A DNA stretch of 64,000 bases from Zeimonas arvi (lineage in GTDB: Bacteria; Pseudomonadota; Gammaproteobacteria; Burkholderiales; Burkholderiaceae_E). A program made the position numbers and the translations under genes. The stretch covers positions 62,001 through 126,000 of the forward strand of contig NZ_VDUY01000007.1 in assembly GCF_008039575.1 (NCBI RefSeq). Direction: 5' to 3'. How positions within the stretch are numbered: position 1 is the first letter of the stretch; each line of letters starts with the position of its first letter. The notes under the pieces were generated by a model that saw only the letters and a program-made list of their open reading frames with translations, was not told the DNA's origin and did not search any database. Shown piece by piece: positions 947 to 27,730 of the stretch.

Positions 947-3900
947 TCAGACCGAAAGGATGCTGCGCCGACCGGTGATGCCGTTGCGGCGCCTCGCGGG
1001 CGGCGCGTGGTGGCCCAAGACCTCGATCACCTGGGTGTCCTGAACCAGGCTCATCCCGTGCTCGGCATGCAGAAGGCGCTCGCGGTCGACGGGCCGGCAC
1101 AAACCGAAGCCCTGCGCGTAATCGACGTTCAGGTCCATGAGCGTGCGCACGATCTCGGCGTTCTCGGCCCATTCGGCCACGCAGGCCATGCCGATCTCGT
1201 GGGACAGGTCGACGATGGCGCGCGTGATTGCGTGGTTCGCGGGGTTCAGGTTCACATCCCGAATGAAGCTGCCGTCGATCTTCACGAAATCCCCGGGCAA
1301 TTCCTTCAGGTAGCTGAATGACGTGTAGCCGGCACCGAAGTCGTCGAGCGCCACCCGGGCGCCGAAGGATTTCACCCTGTCGACGAAGCGGCGCGTCGTT
1401 TTCAGGTCGTACAGCGCCACGCTCTCGGTGATCTCGAAGCAGACGCGTTGCGTGGCGTCGGGATGATTGCGAATGAGCGCGATCGTGTCCTGCAGGAACT
1501 TCTCGTCGTTCAGCGACGCGCCACTGAGGTTGATCGTGCAAAAGCCCAACCGCTCGCGATGGTCCGGATTCTCGTCGAGCCACTCGAGAGTGGAGCGCAG
1601 CACCCAGCGATCGATCTGGCTCATCAGGCCGTTGCGCTCGGCGGCGGCGATGAACCGGCCGGGCGGCACCACCGCACCGGCACCATCGCGCATGCGCACC
1701 AGCACCTCGTAGGAGAGGCTGGCATACGGGGTCCGCAACGACACGATGGGCTGCAGCTGCGTGAAGAAGTTCTCCACCGGCAGTCGCTCGCGCATGTTCG
1801 CCACGAGCTTGATCTCGTCGAGGTAGGTCGTGAGCTCCGAGCTGCGCGAGCCCAGGGCGACCACCGTGGAGCCACCCGCCTTCTTCGCCTCGGCGCAGGC
1901 GCGGTCCGAGGCGGTGAGCGCGTCGCGCGGGGTCATCTCGGGCGCAAGCTGGATGACGCCGATGCTCGCCGCGACACTGAATGCCTTGTCCTGATGCTGG
2001 TACGGCCGCTCGCTCAGCGCACGCCGGAGCTCCTCGCAAAGCGCTCGGGCGGTCTCCAGGGACATGTCGTTGATGACCACGACGAACTCGTCGCCGCCCA
2101 CCCGCGCGGCAATGTGCGGCGGGCGGATCACGCTACGCGTGCGCGTCGACATCTGCCGAAGGATCTGGTCTCCCGCCACGTGACCGAACAGGTCGTTAAC
2201 GAGCTTGAAGCGGTCGAGATCGACGTAAGCGAAGCAGATGCTGCGCTCCCTGGACGCCGCGATCGCACGCTCGAGATGCCCATTGAAGCCGCGACGATTG
2301 AGCAGGCCAGTGAGCGAGTCGTGATCTGCAAGGAACTGCAGCCGCCCTTCGGCTTCCTTACGGGCGGTCACATCCTCGATCCAGGTCTCGATACGGCCCT
2401 GCTTGCGCAGAGCCCGCATGTGCAGCCAGCGACGCCCACCTTCCCGGGACGAGATCGCGATCTCGGTATCGGTGAGCCGGCTCTCGTCGGCCTGACGGAT
2501 GAGTGACTCGAGCGCGTGCTGGTTAGCTACCTCGGCCCAGCTCTTGGGCTCCCGGTACTGAGAGGGCGGTGGTAGGTCGAACATGACCCCGAAGGCGGGG
2601 TTGTACTCCAGGATCGTTCCGTCGTCCCGCATGGAGAACAAACCGACCGGCATGGTGTTGTAGTTCTCGCGGAAGCGTTGGAGGGCGCTCACTGCTCTGT
2701 TCTGCGCTGTGACTCGTGCGGCTCTCTCCTCATTCATTCGCGCAGCGAGGGCAATCGCCATCACTAATGCCGACGCTAGCGCGCTGACCTGGCTGTTAAG
2801 CAGTTTCGGAGCCTCATCGGTCACGCCACTCGCATATGCAATTTCGCCAATTAGGCCTGCTGCCGTAATTCCCCAGCCGATTGCGTACCAGTAGGCGATT
2901 ACATTTGGATGCGTCCGAATGATTTGAGCAACTGAAACGGTGATTAGAATTATCGATGCAAATCCGAAAACCCAAATTACATTCAAAGACTGAGAGGGAA
3001 AGAAATGAGAAACTAGAGTCGTAACTATTACTACTGATAGAAGAACGGACCATACATATCGGCGCAGGCCAAGTTTTGTTAGCTCTGTGCGAAAGAGTGC
3101 CTCAAATAGTCCGAGAGACAGGACGAAATGTGCAACTAAAGAGAGCCGCAGAACCAAACGCTGCGCGCTATTCCCAAGTTCGAGCCCTATCCAATTTAAG
3201 TCCCATCCCCCGTTTTGAGCTGCCACACGAAGGCTAGTGATTAGCCAGGCACCGAAAAGAAGAAATACCATGTCCCGATTGAATGCGGCAATTAGCAGGC
3301 TAAACATTGCCAACATCAACAGCGATCCCAGTAGTAGCCCACCTTGTCGCTCAAATCGAAACTGGCCTGCATTCAGAGTCGCCTCGTCTTGGACCAGACG
3401 TACCGAGGGGCGATTGAAGGAGTCAGTTGAGAAACGCCCCAGAACCTTGAGAGAGATCCCAGTGTATTTTGGAATCGCGATGGAGACTCCATCGCGAATT
3501 GGATTCCACGGCAATTCCGCGACTAAGTCCCACTCGCCGTCCGTCTTGCTCGCGAAAAGCCAGAACTCTCCGCGCTGTAGCCTCAGTGACTCGAGCTTGA
3601 GCTGATTGCGGGTCGAAACATCCGCTGGCTCCAAGTCAATCATGAGCCAGTGAGTGCCACCAGTCAGCTTTCCTGCACGAAGTCGAGGGGTGCCACCGCC
3701 CTTCGTTGCAGTGAGTTCGTTGAGTGCCTCGCCCGGACCAAGTCCTGGTTGTTCCTCAAGCGCGGTTATGACTTCGAGTTGGAGATCGCGATCCGCGGGC
3801 GATTCGGCGCTTACGGTGAAATAAGCGGCCAAGCCGGCCGCAACCACGACCATAATCGCAATGGCAGCCGGTACGTAGGCTAAAGTCGTCGCTAACGCCG

Positions 3901-4000
3901 AGTGATAAACGGAGCGTCTGAAGGTGGCAAGGGGGTTGAGCAAGGCAGCCGATCCGTCAGGGTGATCTCTGCAGACAGTATAGGCAGCGGTACATGTCAC
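947..4000 (-). CDS. 7TMR-DISM / PAS / GGDEF / EAL membrane c-di-GMP signalling protein
   Basis: A 1017-residue sensor. An N-terminal membrane segment (about residues 42-66) is followed by a periplasmic DISMED2-like domain (about 70-215), seven hydrophobic segments (about 222-425, 7TMR-DISM type), a PAS domain (about 450-555), a GGDEF domain with intact RVGGDEF near residue 636, and an EAL domain with YEVLVRM (EVL variant) near 765 and DDFGAGYTSF near 885. Both c-di-GMP synthesis and hydrolysis are possible; which dominates cannot be read from sequence. The GTG start at 4000 lies inside an inverted repeat and has no clear RBS; a TTG about 20 codons in is an alternative. It lies 85 nt downstream of the acyltransferase gene and is probably co-transcribed. 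The sensor half is low in GC (about 35% at 2941-3000) while the catalytic half is about 70%. Confidence 0.9.
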   Translation of the reverse strand: MTCTAAYTVCRDHPDGSAALLNPLATFRRSVYHSALATTLAYVPAAIAIMVVVAAGLAAYFTVSAESPADRDLQLEVITALEEQPGLGPGEALNELTATKGGGTPRLRAGKLTGGTHWLMIDLEPADVSTRNQLKLESLRLQRGEFWLFASKTDGEWDLVAELPWNPIRDGVSIAIPKYTGISLKVLGRFSTDSFNRPSVRLVQDEATLNAGQFRFERQGGLLLGSLLMLAMFSLLIAAFNRDMVFLLFGAWLITSLRVAAQNGGWDLNWIGLELGNSAQRLVLRLSLVAHFVLSLGLFEALFRTELTKLGLRRYVWSVLLSVVIVTTLVSHFFPSQSLNVIWVFGFASIILITVSVAQIIRTHPNVIAYWYAIGWGITAAGLIGEIAYASGVTDEAPKLLNSQVSALASALVMAIALAARMNEERAARVTAQNRAVSALQRFRENYNTMPVGLFSMRDDGTILEYNPAFGVMFDLPPPSQYREPKSWAEVANQHALESLIRQADESRLTDTEIAISSREGGRRWLHMRALRKQGRIETWIEDVTARKEAEGRLQFLADHDSLTGLLNRRGFNGHLERAIAASRERSICFAYVDLDRFKLVNDLFGHVAGDQILRQMSTRTRSVIRPPHIAARVGGDEFVVVINDMSLETARALCEELRRALSERPYQHQDKAFSVAASIGVIQLAPEMTPRDALTASDRACAEAKKAGGSTVVALGSRSSELTTYLDEIKLVANMRERLPVENFFTQLQPIVSLRTPYASLSYEVLVRMRDGAGAVVPPGRFIAAAERNGLMSQIDRWVLRSTLEWLDENPDHRERLGFCTINLSGASLNDEKFLQDTIALIRNHPDATQRVCFEITESVALYDLKTTRRFVDRVKSFGARVALDDFGAGYTSFSYLKELPGDFVKIDGSFIRDVNLNPANHAITRAIVDLSHEIGMACVAEWAENAEIVRTLMDLNVDYAQGFGLCRPVDRERLLHAEHGMSLVQDTQVIEVLGHHAPPARRRNGITGRRSILSV

Positions 4001-4020
4001 TCGTTGAGAGCCGACGAGTG
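3998..4020 (-). promoter_or_regulatory. Inverted repeat enclosing the GTG start of the GGDEF/EAL gene
   Basis: CACTCGT (3998-4004) and ACGAGTG (4014-4020) are perfect 7-bp complements around a 9-nt loop. On the minus-strand mRNA the 3' arm ends with the GTG start codon, so a folded hairpin would hide the initiation codon. Confidence 0.4.
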
Positions 4021-4085
4021 GAATACTTGGACACCCGGACGGTTATGAGATGGTGCGGGAGGCGTTGCAGACCGTGACTGGCGTC

Positions 4086-4931
4086 CTACACGACGGGTAT
4101 GTCGAGTGTCGCCGGCACTTCGGGAATGCGACCCTCGCGCGTTCTCTTCGACCGTGGCATCGCCCACATTCCTCGAACAGATGAGAATATCTCGATGTCC
4201 GGGTGGAAGTCCTCGATCATAAATTTATAGAGCGGGTGCTGGGCGTCCCGCCATGTTCGTTCCCCGGCGGGAACATCAAAGACGAAAAGCCGAAGATGCT
4301 TCTTTCCTTGACTCGGAAAGCTCAGTAAGGTTGGATGGTCAAATACTTCTCGGAATCCAAGTTTCATGAATTCGCGGTCAACGGGTGTGCGCGCCGCGAC
4401 AAGCATGTAGTCAATTTGGGTGGCAAGACAAAAGCGATAAAGAGCTTTAAACAAAGCACGTTTCACCAGAGTTCCAGTGGGCCCTGCCTTGACTCCAAGG
4501 CGGCCAACTTGGGCAATTGTCTTGTCGCGAAGGAAGTCGGGCAGTCGAACTACAGCTTCGAGTTCAGTCCGAAAATTAAGGTTTGTCTCGATGCGTATTG
4601 AGCCCTCGGGCTCGCCGGTGCTCTTTGATTCCGCGAGAAGAACCACGTTCCCACGGGTGCGATCAGCTTCTTCCGGTTGCAGCAATCGGGCGCCGAACTG
4701 CGGGGCATGGCGAAGGAAGGCTTGAGCGCGAACTTGAACCGCTTTTAGGAGATGTTCCTCGGTCCGAGCCAGTCGCACAGTGAACGGCAGGTTGATGCCG
4801 CGCGCATGGACTGGGATGCCCCGCGAGGAGTGGAGGTCTTCATCGCTGATAGTGAGAACCTGAGATCCGAGAGCCCTCGAACCAGCAACATCGTGGGGGA
4901 GAGTCTCCAGTACGTTCACGTCGACATTCAT
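4086..4931 (-). CDS. FeeM-type N-acyl amino acid synthase (GNAT-fold acyltransferase)
   Basis: A 281-residue protein. The body fits the N-acyl amino acid synthase FeeM family, GNAT-related enzymes that move a fatty acyl chain from acyl carrier protein to an amino acid. Visible landmarks: 'KAVQVRAQAFLRH' near residue 65, 'GSIRIETN', an acceptor-side 'GRLGVKAG' strand, 'VKRALFKALYRFC', 'AARTPVDREFMKLGFREVF', and a C-terminal 'HPLYKF..EDFHPDI'. No signal peptide or membrane segment, so cytoplasmic. I start at the ATG at 4931, the first ATG, with GGAGAG about 10 nt upstream; a TTG at 5000 would add 23 poorly family-like residues. It is divergent from a hybrid kinase and is followed by a GGDEF/EAL gene, which suggests a regulated lipid-like signal or surface product. 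The amino acid acceptor is unknown. Confidence 0.75.
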   Translation of the reverse strand: MNVDVNVLETLPHDVAGSRALGSQVLTISDEDLHSSRGIPVHARGINLPFTVRLARTEEHLLKAVQVRAQAFLRHAPQFGARLLQPEEADRTRGNVVLLAESKSTGEPEGSIRIETNLNFRTELEAVVRLPDFLRDKTIAQVGRLGVKAGPTGTLVKRALFKALYRFCLATQIDYMLVAARTPVDREFMKLGFREVFDHPTLLSFPSQGKKHLRLFVFDVPAGERTWRDAQHPLYKFMIEDFHPDIEIFSSVRGMWAMPRSKRTREGRIPEVPATLDIPVV

Positions 4932-4964
4932 TCTTCTGAGGCTCTCCGGTTGCGCAAAAGTACT

Positions 4965-4988
4965 TCCCAAGGTCCAGCAGCCTTGGGA
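4965..4988. promoter_or_regulatory. 24-bp dyad upstream of the acyltransferase (candidate operator)
   Basis: TCCCAAGG (4965-4972) and CCTTGGGA (4981-4988) form a perfect 8-bp inverted repeat with an 8-nt spacer, centred about 45 bp before the acyltransferase ATG and inside the intergenic region shared with the divergent kinase. Geometry suits a dimeric DNA-binding regulator, or a hairpin in the 5' leader. Confidence 0.4.
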
Positions 4989-5155
4989 GCATCCCCTCAA
5001 CTAAGACTTTCGGATGATTGCAGATGTGTGTGTTGTATGTCACTAAGGCATCTGGGGCACCTTGCCGGTAACTTGGCCTGGACTTCGGCTTGTTGCAGAA
5101 AAACTACATTCGAGCCGATCGCCGGCGGTTGCCAAGGGGTAAGAGACCCTTGTCA

Positions 5156-5174
5156 GCTCACATGTCTCGTGAGC
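5156..5174. promoter_or_regulatory. Inverted repeat in the kinase leader
   Basis: GCTCAC (5156-5161) and GTGAGC (5169-5174) are exact complements with a 7-nt spacer, 34 nt before the chosen ATG of the kinase gene. A second dyad in the same 277-bp divergent region; role unknown. Confidence 0.3.
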
Positions 5175-5208
5175 CCGCTTGGAGTCGTCGTCAATTCTAG
5201 TGCGCTCA

Positions 5209-7065
5209 ATGCAGGGGAATCGCTTGTATCCACGAAAGTTTCCCGACGCCGACCAGGAGTCCGCCTTTCTTCAGGAATTTCGACGAAGTGGCGCACGTTT
5301 TGCACTTGCCGCGTCACTCGCGGGCGCTCTAATGGCGTTCTCTTTTGTGGTCCTAATGATTGGCGATGAGGCTCGAGATATCAACCAGCATTCCAGGCAA
5401 CTAGTTCGATTGGGCATTGGTGGGTTATTGTCAACGTCATGCCTAGTCCTTTGGCTTCTGCCGAGATTCTCAGTTCGCAACTATCTATTTGTGGTTGGGG
5501 TGCCAGCCACTTTGGCCTGCTTCACGGTTGCGCTTCTAGGATATCTGCCAACCGACGCAGAATTTCCCCGGTCGGGGCGTCTCACTGTCGCGATGTGCTT
5601 GACTTGTTTTCTCGTCTACGGATTCACCAGACTCCCGGTTGTACTAATGTTCACAATTTGCTCTGTATCGTCTGCGATCGCGATTGCAGCGGCGATCTCG
5701 AATGGCGATGACTATGGTCGGGCTCTGGTTATTTATCTGGCTGCCGCAAACGTCTCGGGGTGCTTGTTGAGCGCGCAGATAGAAAATAGGGAGCGGGAGA
5801 GCTTCAATAGGGAAATTGCGCTTGTTGAAGCGAGAGAGAAGCTCGCAGCCAGCGCTCAAGCTAGTAGTGATGCAAGCGCCGCGAAATCGCTCTTGATGGC
5901 GGCAGTAAATCATGATCTAAGGCAGCCAGCTGCAAGTGCAACCCTTTACCTTGAACGGCTTACTGCGCATATCGAGGAATGCGCTCCGAGTTGCATGCCC
6001 CTGCTGGGAAAAGTCAGAGAGTGCGTTGGAGCTATTACCGATAACCTTTCACGCTTGTCGGTTGTTGCGGATCTAAATGACAAGGAGCGAGTCCTAGTCC
6101 CGACACAGGTCGATTTGTGCGCTATTCTAGACCGGCTCGTAGGAGTTTATTCTGGACCTGCGCTTGAGCGAAAAATCAGGTTCGAAGTGGCTTTGCCGCG
6201 CCGTGGGAATTTGACACTGATGACGGATGGCGCGCGCTTGGGAGATGTCCTTGCCAATTTAGTTAGCAATGCACTGAAGTTTACGTCAGAGGATGGTCGT
6301 GGTTGGGTCGCCGTTCGCGCGATTCGATTCGGCTCTCGGATTCGAATTACTGTTCGAGACAATGGGATCGGGATCGCCAAGCATCATCATCATCGTGTAT
6401 TTGACGAGTATTTCCAAATCGATAACGCGGAACGTGACCGTGATCGCGGCTATGGTCTCGGCCTTTCGATCGTCCGGGACACGATCGCGCGGCTCCCGGG
6501 GCACTCTATTTTCCTAAGATCCGCGTTAGGAGAAGGAACGCGGTTCGATGTATGGGTGCCGCTCGCACCCACAATTGAACGTGCCGTTGGAGAGTCGGCT
6601 TGGTCCGGTTTGCACAGTTCGGCTTGTAATTGCGAGGAGACGCTAGCGCGAGGATGCGGCCATGAATTGGAGGAGAAGGAAAGAAACCTTCGAGGCGTGT
6701 ACGTTTTGCTCGTAGAGGATGATCCGTTGGTAAGGTCGGCACTCATTGAAACGCTAAAAGGATGGGGGATGCTCGTTGATGCGGCGGCGTCCCCTGAAGC
6801 CGCGCTAGCACTTGCCAGGCGCGCGGAGCGTTTGTTTGACTTAGTGGTTTCAGACTTCGGGTTTGACGCCGCGCTGGACGGATTGGATTTGATTCGAGAG
6901 GTTCGGGGAGAGCAGGGGCGCGTGACCCCGGCAATAATTTTCTCTGGACAGATCCCATCCATTGATGAAAAGAGGCTGAGCGAACTGCAGGTTCGCGCCG
7001 TTTCAAAGCCAATACATGCAGAGAGATTGCGGGCGGAATTGGATGCGTGCCTGACGTCCGTGTGA
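5209..7065 (+). CDS. Membrane hybrid sensor histidine kinase with receiver domain
   Basis: A 618-residue protein. Several hydrophobic segments (about residues 28-187) form an integral membrane sensor of no named type. Then a HisKA domain with the phospho-accepting His235 in NHDLRQP, a HATPase domain with N box (NLVSNALKF), G1 (DNGIGIA) and G2 (GYGLGLSIV), and a C-terminal receiver beginning LLVEDDPLV with Asp549 in VVSDFGFD and a conserved KPI lysine. All catalytic boxes are intact. No output domain follows, so the phosphate goes to an unlinked partner or the receiver is autoregulatory. ATG 5209 is chosen; a TTG at 5179 is possible. GC is well below the genome average. Divergent from the FeeM-type acyltransferase, it is a candidate sensor for that locus. 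Confidence 0.9.
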   Translation: MQGNRLYPRKFPDADQESAFLQEFRRSGARFALAASLAGALMAFSFVVLMIGDEARDINQHSRQLVRLGIGGLLSTSCLVLWLLPRFSVRNYLFVVGVPATLACFTVALLGYLPTDAEFPRSGRLTVAMCLTCFLVYGFTRLPVVLMFTICSVSSAIAIAAAISNGDDYGRALVIYLAAANVSGCLLSAQIENRERESFNREIALVEAREKLAASAQASSDASAAKSLLMAAVNHDLRQPAASATLYLERLTAHIEECAPSCMPLLGKVRECVGAITDNLSRLSVVADLNDKERVLVPTQVDLCAILDRLVGVYSGPALERKIRFEVALPRRGNLTLMTDGARLGDVLANLVSNALKFTSEDGRGWVAVRAIRFGSRIRITVRDNGIGIAKHHHHRVFDEYFQIDNAERDRDRGYGLGLSIVRDTIARLPGHSIFLRSALGEGTRFDVWVPLAPTIERAVGESAWSGLHSSACNCEETLARGCGHELEEKERNLRGVYVLLVEDDPLVRSALIETLKGWGMLVDAAASPEAALALARRAERLFDLVVSDFGFDAALDGLDLIREVRGEQGRVTPAIIFSGQIPSIDEKRLSELQVRAVSKPIHAERLRAELDACLTSV

Positions 7066-7116
7066 GGCGTTAAGTGCGAACTTCGAGATCGCGCTTGAGA
7101 ACTCCATCCCGCCCCT

Positions 7117-7602
7117 TCAACCCACCAGATAAGCCGCAGAGCCGGTGGCGATCAGTGTGCCCGCCTCGTTCTCCAGCGTCATCTGCGCGGACCCGATCCG
7201 GCCGCCGAGTCGGGTCACACGCCCGGTGGCAAGAAAGTGCTGGCCGATCCCGGGGCGAAGGAAGTCGGTTCGCAGGTCGATCGTGCCGAACCGGCCGAAG
7301 CGGGTCATGACCTGCGCCGCCGATTCATCCCTGTGCTTGTCGGCGATCGCGCACATCAGCGCGAGACCGCCCGTTGCGTCGAGTACGGATGCGATGACGC
7401 CGCCGTGGAGGCGGCCAGTGGGGTAGTGCCCGATCAGTTCGGCCCGCATGTCGAACCGGATCGTCGAGCCGTCGGGGTCGAGCGTGCCGACCTTCATGCC
7501 GAGCAGCTGGTTGAAGGCGATCATCCGCTCGAACAACTCGCGGTACGTGTCGTCGAGTCGTGCTTGTTCTTCCGCGGAGCGCGGAGGGCGCTGGGTGGTC
7601 AT
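7117..7602 (-). CDS. PaaI/YigI-like hotdog-fold acyl-CoA thioesterase
   Basis: A 161-residue protein of the right length for a single hotdog domain. The central 'TGRLHGGVIASVLDATGGLA' stretch is the typical helix of this fold, with the HGG turn and a downstream acidic Asp; 'GTIDLRTDFLRPG' and 'ATGRVTRLGGRIG' are the later beta strands. It probably hydrolyses medium- or long-chain acyl-CoA in the cytoplasm. Convergent with the kinase gene (51 nt apart) and divergent from the lipoprotein gene, so transcribed alone. The ATG at 7602 precedes MTTQ and fits the domain start; the longer upstream frame has no family resemblance. Confidence 0.85.
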   Translation of the reverse strand: MTTQRPPRSAEEQARLDDTYRELFERMIAFNQLLGMKVGTLDPDGSTIRFDMRAELIGHYPTGRLHGGVIASVLDATGGLALMCAIADKHRDESAAQVMTRFGRFGTIDLRTDFLRPGIGQHFLATGRVTRLGGRIGSAQMTLENEAGTLIATGSAAYLVG

Positions 7603-7771
7603 CGCTGCTCGGGGGGTCTCGTTGTCCGTCGCGATGATGGCACAGCCGGCCCACGGGGCTCGCGCCGCGAGCGGAACAGCCGGCTCGTGCTGCGCCCGGA
7701 ATATTTCGCCGCTCTCCGGCGTTTGCCCTCCAAGGCCGTCTCCTGCGGCCTGCTCCATGGGAGGAATGACG

Positions 7772-8149
7772 ATGCTCAGGTTGACAGCTGCCCTTGCAAC
7801 GACGGCCCTGATGACGGCGTGCGCCGGTTGGGGAACAATGAGCAACGCACCGGCAAGGGTCTCGGACGGCGTGCTCGTGGGCGAGAACGGGATGACCCTG
7901 TACACCTTCGACCGGGACCAGGCGGGTTCCGGGCGGAGCGTGTGTAATGGGCAGTGCGCGGTGAATTGGCCTCCGCTCAAGGCGGCCGGCGGGAAGTCGG
8001 CCGGCGACTGGACCGTGATCGCCCGCGACGACGGTTCCGCGCAGTGGGCCTACAAGGGCAAGCCCCTGTACTTCTGGGTTCGCGACCAGAAGCCGGGGGA
8101 TCGCACGGGGGAAGGGTTCAACGGTGTCTGGCGTGTCGCTCGCCCATGA
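7772..8149 (+). CDS. Secreted repeat-type lipoprotein (COG4315 family)
   Basis: A 125-residue protein with a short N-terminal signal ending in LMTAC, a lipobox-like site with an unusual Met at -3, then two copies of the 'TLYTFDRD' / 'PLYFWVRD' beta motif with paired cysteines (CNGQC) found in the secreted repeat lipoprotein family. Biochemical role unknown; related proteins are often encoded beside ECF sigma factors, as here. GGAGGA lies 7 nt before the ATG at 7772; an in-frame ATG at 7766 is too close to it. It overlaps the sigma factor gene by 26 nt, so the three genes 7772-9605 form one operon. Confidence 0.85.
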   Translation: MLRLTAALATTALMTACAGWGTMSNAPARVSDGVLVGENGMTLYTFDRDQAGSGRSVCNGQCAVNWPPLKAAGGKSAGDWTVIARDDGSAQWAYKGKPLYFWVRDQKPGDRTGEGFNGVWRVARP

Positions 8150-8666
8150 AGAGCTGGTTGCGCTGATTCCGCGCCTGCGCCGTTACGCGCGGGTGCTGTG
8201 CCCCGACCCGGCCGCTGCCGACGATCTGGTGCAGGACACGCTGGAGCGTGCCTGCGCAAGGATCTCGCAGTGGCGGCCGGGCTCGGACCTCAGGGCCTGG
8301 ACGTTCGCGATCATGCATAACGTGTTCGTGAGCGAGACCCGCCGCCCTCGGTATCGCTTCGAGAGCCCGCTCGGCGGGGATCACGATGGCGCTGCCGATT
8401 CATGCGCATCGAACGGCGATCCCGCTCTCGACTGGGGTACGACGAGGGACCTGGAACGGGCTCTGCGCTTGCTTCCCGAGGCGCAGTTGCAGGTCCTGCT
8501 GCTGGTCGCCTTCGAGGACATGTCCTACGAACAGGTCGCGCAAGCGGTCGGCGTGCCGGTAGGCACGGTGATGTCGCGGCTGTTCAGGGGGCGAGCCCGG
8601 TTACGCGAGCTGCTCGAGCCGACGGCGGTCCGGCCCGCGGCAGCCAAGGTGACCGTCTTGAAGTGA
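8124..8666 (+). CDS. ECF-family RNA polymerase sigma factor
   Basis: A 180-residue protein with region 2 (DPAAADDLVQDTLERA followed by an RAWTFAIMHNVF helix) and region 4 (LPEAQLQVLLLVAFEDMSYEQVAQAVGVP and the recognition helix GTVMSRLFRGRARLRE). No extra C-terminal domain. It begins with GTG inside the end of the lipoprotein gene and is followed immediately (0 nt) by the putative anti-sigma gene, the usual pair for stress- or envelope-responsive ECF systems. The target promoter could not be identified by eye. Confidence 0.93.
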   Translation: MSGVSLAHEELVALIPRLRRYARVLCPDPAAADDLVQDTLERACARISQWRPGSDLRAWTFAIMHNVFVSETRRPRYRFESPLGGDHDGAADSCASNGDPALDWGTTRDLERALRLLPEAQLQVLLLVAFEDMSYEQVAQAVGVPVGTVMSRLFRGRARLRELLEPTAVRPAAAKVTVLK

Positions 8667-9605
8667 GTGGAACTGGTGACGAATCGACCTGACAGGGACG
8701 ACATTCTGGCGTGGGTGGACGAGCGCGCGACTGGCGAACAGTCCAGCCGGGTGGAGAGCTGGCTTGCGCAGGATGCCGAGGCGCGCGACGAGGCGCTCGC
8801 CTGGCGCTCGCAGTCGAGGGCGCTCGCCGGGCTCGGAAAGCAGGTCCTCGAGGAGCCCGTGCCGCAGTGTCTGCTCGATGCGGCGCGGGGTGCTCCCGCG
8901 GCCATGAGCGCCGACGGTCGAGAGGCCGGCGGTCGAGAGGCCGACGGTCAAGCGTTCGGTGGTCCAAAGTTAGCCAGGCCCAAGTTCGCCAGTCCAAGGT
9001 TCGGCGGTGCCAGGTTCTGGCTGGCTGCGGCGTCGCTCGCCGCGCTCGCCTGGTCGGCCGGCTGGCTGTCGCATGCGTGGCTCGCGCCGCCCGCTTCCCT
9101 GACGCTGGCAACGGGTCCGGATGTCGGCTTGCCGGCCGATCGAGGCGCGCCGCCCGGGTTCGTTCGCGACGCGGTGGCCGCGCACGCGGTCTTCGTTCCG
9201 GAGGTCCGGCATCCGGTCGAAGTGGCCGCGGCGCAGCAGGAGCACCTGGTTCAATGGTTGTCCAAGCGCCTCGGGGCGCGCCTGACCGTTCCTTCGCTCG
9301 ATGCCGCCGGCTGGTCGCTGGTGGGCGGGCGCCTGCTCCCGGGAGAGGACGGCGCGCGCGCACAGTTCATGTACGAGGACGCCACCGGCGCGCGGATCAC
9401 GCTCTACCTTGCGGACGCCGGGTCGGCGTCGCGCGACACCGCGTTTCGATTCGAGACCGAGGGCGGAGTCTCGGCCTTTTACTGGGTGGACGGGCGATTC
9501 GGCTATGCGCTCGCGGGGCAGCTCGAGCGCGCGGCGATGCTCGCCCTGGCCGAGGAGGTCTACAGGCAGGTGGCGGGCGGGTTGCCCGAGGCCAGGCCGA
9601 ACTGA
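8667..9605 (+). CDS. Transmembrane anti-sigma factor
   Basis: A 312-residue protein starting directly after the sigma factor stop (GTG 8667; GTG 8676 possible). The first about 70 residues resemble the cytoplasmic anti-sigma region ('DDILAWVDERATGEQSSRVESWLAQDAEARDEALAW' pattern), but the zinc HxxxCxxC signature is absent. A low-complexity linker with repeated GRE-G/D and PKF/PRF units (about 78-115) precedes one membrane helix (FWLAAASLAALAWSAGWL) and a periplasmic domain of about 170 residues. It is expected to hold the ECF sigma at the membrane until an envelope signal arrives. Confidence 0.85.
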   Translation: MELVTNRPDRDDILAWVDERATGEQSSRVESWLAQDAEARDEALAWRSQSRALAGLGKQVLEEPVPQCLLDAARGAPAAMSADGREAGGREADGQAFGGPKLARPKFASPRFGGARFWLAAASLAALAWSAGWLSHAWLAPPASLTLATGPDVGLPADRGAPPGFVRDAVAAHAVFVPEVRHPVEVAAAQQEHLVQWLSKRLGARLTVPSLDAAGWSLVGGRLLPGEDGARAQFMYEDATGARITLYLADAGSASRDTAFRFETEGGVSAFYWVDGRFGYALAGQLERAAMLALAEEVYRQVAGGLPEARPN

Positions 9606-27654: not shown

Positions 27655-27730
27655 TGGCGCCCCCGGCACGAATCGAACGTGCGACCCTCCCCTTAGGAGG
27701 GGGATGCTCTATCCACTGAGCTACGGAGGC
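27655..27730 (-). tRNA. tRNA-Arg (anticodon CCU)
   Basis: The 76-nt minus-strand sequence folds as a complete tRNA: acceptor GCCTCCG pairs with CGGGGGC (one G-T pair), D arm AGCTC..GAGC, anticodon loop CTCCTAA giving anticodon CCU, T arm with TTCGATT, discriminator G, and an encoded CCA end. It reads AGG codons. No other tRNA lies nearby. Confidence 0.97.

Follow-up and report, generated by a model that had tools for sequence, protein, structure and literature searches.

The window described here, a 64,000-nt stretch of the Zeimonas arvi genome (3.83 Mb in 16 contigs), carries a block of three intact genes: a FeeM-like GNAT acyltransferase, presumably the synthase of a signal; a membrane protein with 7TMR-DISM, PAS, GGDEF and EAL domains (the cyclase below); and a divergent hybrid sensor histidine kinase. 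The synthase gene and the sensor-coding ends of its neighbours form a cassette that is exchanged between loci, and the synthase varies together with the sensor half of the cyclase. We read the locus, with a probability of roughly 60%, as a pherotype-like communication module of synthase and receptor, which would feed cyclic di-GMP (c-di-GMP) and probably also His-Asp signalling, its product being bound by the sensor halves that travel with it.

In the window's family the region 2690-7065 behaves as an exchanged cassette. The sister genome G003 has the syntenic locus, and its rpoB region is 95.1% identical in DNA. The two loci align without gaps at 83.5% identity over 947-2707; similarity is then lost and resumes past the kinase at 7377, and from 8114 on. 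At the protein level the catalytic half of the cyclase is 91% identical and its sensor half 33% (over the aligned part), the acyltransferase 46% and the kinase 35-42%. The metagenome bin G006 includes two contigs, C1 and C33, that match at 100% along 6963 bp, a stretch reaching to where the membrane part of the kinase ends. Past this point no DNA similarity is detectable across the kinase sensor half, the synthase and the cyclase sensor half, and it returns at 95% over 65 bp, where C33 ends. Since the first 8488 bp of C33 are 99.4% identical to C1, C33 most likely represents a second strain of this bin, the alternative being a duplicated locus. Genome G015 and contig L077 show the same gap, with flanks that are 94.1% identical on one side and 92.5% on the other. 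Both junctions lie at the transition from the membrane part to the cytoplasmic helix, at about codon 435 in the cyclase and about codon 180-195 in the kinase.

Measured in bins of 250 bases, G+C is 48-59% at 2750-7000 against 60-71% at 1000-2750 and 7000-9000, and the rest of the window has about 65-79% per kb. The block is low in G+C in G003 too, and in both genomes the low-GC part spans the whole kinase, whose halves are sisters on the tree and only 42% identical. An earlier note on this DNA had described a low-GC block starting at 2690. The bins bear out the low G+C, and DNA comparison makes 2690, which lies inside the cyclase gene, a real boundary; the note had missed that the block is an exchanged cassette which ends within that gene. 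Low G+C is not intrinsic to the type, since the closest relative of the window's synthase (70% identical; locus L031 of genome G010) lies in high-GC DNA (67-68%), with the cyclase partner present and the kinase absent.

How closely do the parts of the cassette vary together? Pairwise identities were correlated over the 22 loci in which the sequences of all three genes, synthase, cyclase and kinase, could be used. Synthase identity follows that of the cyclase sensor half with r 0.95 (partial 0.93 given the catalytic half) and that of the kinase sensor half with r 0.76. For the catalytic halves of cyclase and kinase the values are 0.56 and 0.54, and the partial correlations given the sensor halves are 0.13 and -0.07. 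In a larger set of 35 loci with synthase and cyclase, r is 0.88 for the cyclase sensor half against 0.66 for its catalytic half. Among 69 locus pairs whose cyclase catalytic halves are at least 70% identical, synthase and sensor half are both mismatched in 36, both matched in 32, borderline in 1 and discordant in none. The frameshifted locus L051 (genome G005), in which the cyclase and kinase genes are each split over two frames, possibly by sequencing errors, was excluded from pair counts.

Trees built with the simpler LG+G4 model from 16 loci, which belong to the window's genus or to two near contigs, separate the cassette from its flanks. The clade of type B is supported by the cyclase sensor half (100/100) and the synthase (100/99); its support of 86/91 in the kinase sensor half is not decisive. 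The trees of the two catalytic halves reject it (p 3e-94 and 2e-11). Conversely, G015, L077 and G006a form a clade for the catalytic halves (92/91 and 100/99) that the three cassette trees reject (p 1e-8, 1e-68 and 4e-72). The window's partner is G010a in the trees of synthase and cyclase sensor half, and G003 in the two catalytic-half trees; a union of window and G003 is rejected clearly by the synthase (p 0.0015), weakly by the cyclase sensor half (0.04) and not by the kinase sensor half (0.25). Types A and B each cross several genomes, with one genome per species, and two types stand on the 99.4%-identical flanks within one bin. A polymorphic signal gene and receptor sensor half joined to a conserved output half is the arrangement by which pherotypes are recognised, and it is found here for the cyclase and, in some locus pairs only, for the kinase.

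Generally fast evolution of sensor parts was rejected as the cause after a comparison with 10 orthologous pairs of other sensor kinases that these genomes encode, six of G006/G015 (one of them a 7TMR-DISM kinase) and four of G000/G003. They came from a pool of 16 loci of G006 and G000, 8 per genome, compared with G015 and G003, and the pair L180-L169 was dropped as not orthologous. The sensor parts of these controls are mostly 61-98% identical and have no sharp break, with 40-44% over the first 60 residues in three pairs and 53-58% in a few other bins. Nor is exchange a built-in property of these genes, as the synthase, cyclase sensor half and catalytic half diverge together in 20 loci of other families (r 0.89-0.94, with the half boundary set at residue 440 of L058, the boundary motif not being found).

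The conserved core of the system is the pair of synthase and cyclase, and the kinase is a partner in one family, because the cyclase is adjacent across families and the divergent kinase in the window's family only. We surveyed 101 genomes (100 relatives and the window's own), most of the loci coming from metagenome bins, and long flanks were fetched for 40 of the 45 places outside the own genome. The acyltransferase is present in 32 of the 101; the own genome has one match and no second. A first scan of genome contigs with a single protein as query had found nothing. Of the 28 best-scoring places, 27 have the cyclase next to the acyltransferase; the 12 lower-scoring places fetched all lack it there. 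The divergent kinase adjoins in 21 of the 27 paired loci, all within the window's family. More distant kinases, in another arrangement, lie nearby in L044 and L057.

A sample of the order gave 19 of 399 genomes with the acyltransferase gene; all 10 newly fetched loci, from four other families, have the cyclase directly behind the gene and lack a divergent kinase next to it. Among plasmid records of Paraburkholderia and Caballeronia 13 match, and each of the 8 fetched has the pair, labelled 'hypothetical protein' and 'EAL domain protein' in both annotated records. In the wider class none of 368 other genomes sampled carries the gene. The pairing survives altered gene order, being divergent in L072 and L099 and convergent in L104 and L105. 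Homologues of the acyltransferase thus do co-occur with the sensors, and the system reading of the earlier note, which would have failed otherwise, survives this check. A second FeeM-like paralogue occurs in many genomes of the genus (L059, L061-L070) in a shared neighbourhood without the two sensors; its neighbours, named by eye, are an M16-like peptidase, a ferredoxin, a glutathione-transferase-like protein and other housekeeping-type genes. L054 / L098 is a relative that keeps the catalytic Glu and has no 7TMR-DISM partner, and two other GGDEF-type stretches adjoin it.

The three-gene layout proposed earlier from the letters alone is upheld by open reading frames, whose positions were confirmed, and by Pfam (Table 1). 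The acyltransferase gene lies 85 nt upstream of the cyclase gene on the same strand. The cyclase matches 7TMR-DISM_7TM (1.5e-9), GGDEF (2e-35) and EAL (2.5e-63), with PAS below the cut-off, and has the GGDEF, E(VL), DDFGAG and K motifs. For 7TMR-DISM (PF07695) the window protein is over the cut-off, and all 30 aligned sensor halves match at E <= 0.01. An AlphaFold2 model of the sensor half (predicted local distance difference test score, pLDDT, 83.7) has a beta-rich periplasmic domain ahead of the membrane helices. No structure in the Protein Data Bank (PDB) matched this model at E <= 0.001, the RetS periplasmic domain reaching E 0.012 with probability 0.99. The kinase matches HATPase (1.1e-25) and receiver (4.7e-13) models, with HisKA below the cut-off, and retains the phospho-His and receiver Asp motifs of a hybrid sensor histidine kinase. 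Its sensor half has 5 hydrophobic segments, one of 40 aa, and no Pfam domain scored above the cut-off there in three sequences.

Table 1. Positions of the genes, their parts and other features of the block in the window
Feature	Position	Strand	Remarks
7TMR-DISM / PAS / GGDEF / EAL protein (cyclase)	947..4000	-	1017 aa; downstream partner of the synthase
Sensor half of the cyclase gene	2692..4000	-	aa 1-436: N-terminal transmembrane helix, predicted periplasmic beta-rich domain, seven transmembrane helices; within the exchanged cassette
Catalytic half of the cyclase gene	947..2691	-	PAS, GGDEF, EAL; conserved backbone
FeeM-like GNAT acyltransferase, presumed signal synthase	4086..4931	-	281 aa from ATG; TTG start at 5000 possible
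Divergent hybrid sensor histidine kinase with receiver domain	5209..7065	+	ATG at 5209; TTG start at 5179 possible
Kinase sensor half	5209..5763	+	varies with the cassette in other locus pairs
Low-GC exchanged cassette	2692..7065	.	sensor half, synthase and, here, the whole kinase
Inverted repeat, synthase-kinase intergenic/start region	4965..4988	.	not conserved
Second inverted repeat	5130..5155	.	not conserved

The two dyads reported earlier between synthase and kinase do exist; what finds no support is the idea that they are a shared feature. No CCAAGG..CCTTG dyad was found in any of the 16 homologous intergenic regions examined, which speaks against a shared operator and makes the dyads probably incidental.

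Predicted fold and homologues both mark the acyltransferase as FeeM-like. On its own the window protein reaches 13.1 bits against FeeM (PF21926; gathering score 27), with E 0.08, below the cut-off, and 24 of 25 aligned sequences, the window's included, match the model at E <= 1 (best 2.1e-11). When six homologues were scored singly, those over the gathering score were G003 (42.7), L058 (34.3) and L056 (29.7 bits), and those under it one of type A (25.5), one of type B (17.6) and G010a (12.3). In the fold search the predicted structure (pLDDT 82.7) has FeeM itself (2g0b) as its top match, at Z 18.7 and 2.6 A over 172 residues; the next match has Z 15.3, the level of about 15 being shared by a different GNAT and by two acyl-homoserine lactone synthases, RpaI and BjaI. 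This agrees with the earlier placement in FeeM and not in another GNAT family. Two other families were tried, the exosortase-associated acyltransferases (7 of 25 members at E <= 1, best 1.2e-5) and the ornithine acyltransferase OlsB (9 of 25, best 1e-4); both are weak, and FeeM is matched by more members and more strongly. The three genes include no acyl-carrier gene.

The active site sets the window's family apart. FeeM-type enzymes have a catalytic glutamate: in the related enzyme Nas354 the exchange Glu103Ala abolishes activity, and the equivalent residue of FeeM is Glu95, according to the part of the report on Nas343 and Nas354 used here (PMC4897644). The Glu95 column falls on Gln141 in the window protein in two of three alignment modes, the third shifting the FeeM fragment. 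By the same two modes, Glu is present in this column in all 18 order-wide and plasmid loci, in G062, G067, two Rhodoferax/Comamonadaceae contigs, L072 and G021a. In 32 of the 34 loci examined from the window's family and from related contigs, whether or not the kinase is present, it is replaced by Tyr (12), His (9), Gly (4), Gln (2, the window and G010a), Phe (2), Ala, Asn and Trp (1 each). The column is uniform in 7 of 8 multi-member types, with Tyr in 8/8 of type A and His in 4/4 of type B; the exception is G042/G052/G022 with Gly, Gly and Ala, and some types share a residue. Tyr and His are able to serve as acid or base in other GNATs. This change may either alter the chemistry, and so the signal, or end catalysis. 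Within types the ratio of nonsynonymous to synonymous rates (dN/dS) of the cassette parts is 0.04-0.13 where finite, rough values with synonymous sites near or at saturation, and such purifying selection argues against simple decay of the synthase.

If the module works as we propose, the synthase would join an acyl group to an amine and so make a diffusible signal of the acyl-amide type. The 7TMR-DISM half of the cyclase would sense it and, judging from the domains, binding would shift the balance of GGDEF and EAL activity and with it the level of c-di-GMP. In the window's family the membrane half of the divergent kinase may read the same or a related cue, of which we are less sure. Specificity would be polymorphic, the synthase and the adjoining sensor halves being replaced jointly by recombination in the conserved output halves, and the outcome would be discrete trans-species types like the ComQXP pherotypes of Bacillus. 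Because both neighbouring genes turn their sensor-coding ends towards the synthase gene, a single exchange can replace the signal together with its receptors. The earlier suggestion of a signal linked to His-Asp and c-di-GMP signalling fits this picture, and is the stronger for sensor halves that travel with the synthase. The N-acyl amino acid expected of FeeM enzymes in the earlier note is a possible product only, since the window protein has Gln in place of the catalytic Glu. A bolder version, to which we give somewhat less than even odds, is that the locus sets a lipid-amide 'dialect' and is the first of its kind: a synthase with an altered catalytic residue would carry the matching sensor halves of two unlike receptors, one of them wired directly to c-di-GMP, and a single recombination event would reprogramme the signal and both receptors.

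Several observations weigh against the communication module. With the synthase gene situated between the two sensor halves, any exchange through the output halves moves the three as one; position thus goes some way to force their co-exchange, which by itself is no proof of mutual recognition. The types were named after the data had been seen. All pairings, those with catalytic halves included, beat 2000 permutations. By rank, the synthase is correlated at 0.56 with the cyclase sensor half and at 0.49 with the cyclase catalytic half, a much smaller contrast that arises because most of the distant pairs differ to about the same degree. The kinase sensor half is correlated with the catalytic halves (r 0.81 and 0.76, rank 0.87 and 0.86) no worse than with the synthase (r 0.76, rank 0.53), and over the whole set is thus not tied to the synthase as the cyclase sensor half is; the kinase is the looser partner. 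In L072 the type of the kinase sensor is parted from that of the synthase. Outside the window's family there is no exchange (synthase against catalytic half r 0.89), and the replacement of the catalytic Glu in nearly all synthases of the family makes their activity uncertain.

Forced co-transfer is also what one would expect if selection acted on one sensor half only, for example on a membrane protein exposed to phages or toxins, and the synthase were swapped merely because it lies between the recombination arms. The output halves are indeed stretches similar enough to recombine, and few parts are less conserved than the periplasmic portion of the 7TMR-DISM half. However, the synthase itself falls into discrete types that are under purifying selection, most of them with a single residue at the catalytic position, and its linkage to the cyclase persists in lineages without exchange and with other gene order; we regard this explanation as unlikely. 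The product might instead stay in the envelope as a membrane aminolipid or surfactant, the sensors only regulating the acyltransferase or monitoring the envelope, with no signal between cells. FeeM relatives produce long-chain N-acyl amino acids with surfactant properties, as the consulted portion of the report on them states (PMC4897644), and the faint matches to OlsB and exosortase-associated models point the same way; it is hard to see, however, why a structural lipid should come in discrete types that cross species and have sensor halves to match, and this makes the envelope role improbable. Very improbable, in our estimate, is that the synthases of the window's family are catalytically dead and serve the sensors as physical partners or as regulators that bind a ligand. 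The loss of Glu in this family, set against its presence in 18 of 18 order-wide and plasmid loci, would be explained, but the predicted fold is intact, Arg144 is kept by all 25 aligned rows and, in a set of 36, by at least 90%, and dN/dS is low.

Among known systems the communication module most resembles ComQXPA. Polymorphism there too affects the genes that make the signal together with the half of the neighbouring receptor gene that codes for the sensor, the poorly conserved part in Bacillus comprising comQ, comX and the 5' end of comP, as given in the sections of the source on which we rely (PMC6334282). ComX, however, is a modified peptide with a kinase receptor, whereas the present locus has a FeeM-like acyltransferase and two unlike candidate receptors, one of them a c-di-GMP enzyme, in Gram-negative Burkholderiales. 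With FeeM, NasY and Nas343-Nas354 the acyltransferase shares family (through its homologues) and fold. It differs from them in that their kind of second domain was not found in it, in its separate 7TMR-DISM-GGDEF-EAL partner and in the replaced catalytic Glu of most of the window's family; no signalling circuit is described for those enzymes in the parts of the literature drawn on here. The LuxI-type synthases LasI, BjaI and RpaI have comparable folds (Z 14-15), but FeeM is nearer and no LuxR-type partner is among the three genes. In CqsA/CqsS and LuxM/LuxN a synthase stands beside a hybrid kinase with a multi-transmembrane sensor, and the synthases differ from this one; we know of no linked GGDEF/EAL receptor and no swapped half in these systems.

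Direct reading of quorum signals by c-di-GMP enzymes has precedents in RpfR, which responds to Burkholderia diffusible signal factor (BDSF), and in a dCACHE cyclase that responds to autoinducer-2 (AI-2), the quorum-signal receptors of this kind given in the excerpted text of a review on c-di-GMP sensing (PMC8846402). Both have another synthase and another sensor domain, and that text names no 7TMR-DISM quorum receptor (PMC8846402). In open-access PMC literature we found no paper that joins FeeM with a histidine kinase and GGDEF, nor N-acyl amino acids with a diguanylate cyclase, a synthase and a histidine kinase; for pherotype, quorum sensing and c-di-GMP together, nothing related appeared among the matches as listed.

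Enzymes of the FeeM family have been proposed as makers of cellular messengers, in the passages available to us (PMC4897644). The matched polymorphism points, from sequence alone, to a candidate receptor, and perhaps two, for a product of this family. We know of no receptor for such products. Pherotype polymorphism is best known from peptide systems of Gram-positive bacteria; the module, if true, would extend it to Burkholderiales and to a c-di-GMP enzyme. The un-swapped pair is present in the culturable Paraburkholderia species P. phymatum STM815, P. graminis and P. caribensis, and the proposal is therefore directly testable.

Some minor observations may be added. Locus L072 has an IS5-like transposase gene (recognised by eye) at 3387-4202, between the inverted synthase and the kinase; its kinase sensor is of type A and its synthase and cyclase sensor of another type, which makes it a natural recombinant. 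The short contigs L072, L076, L077, L079 and L088 had been binned as an archaeon, Thiocapsa, an actinomycete, Pirellula and a deltaproteobacterium, and these unlikely names may be due to the odd base composition of the cassette misleading the binning. The sole tRNA gene detected in the window, tRNA-Arg (cct), lies at 27655-27730 on the minus strand.

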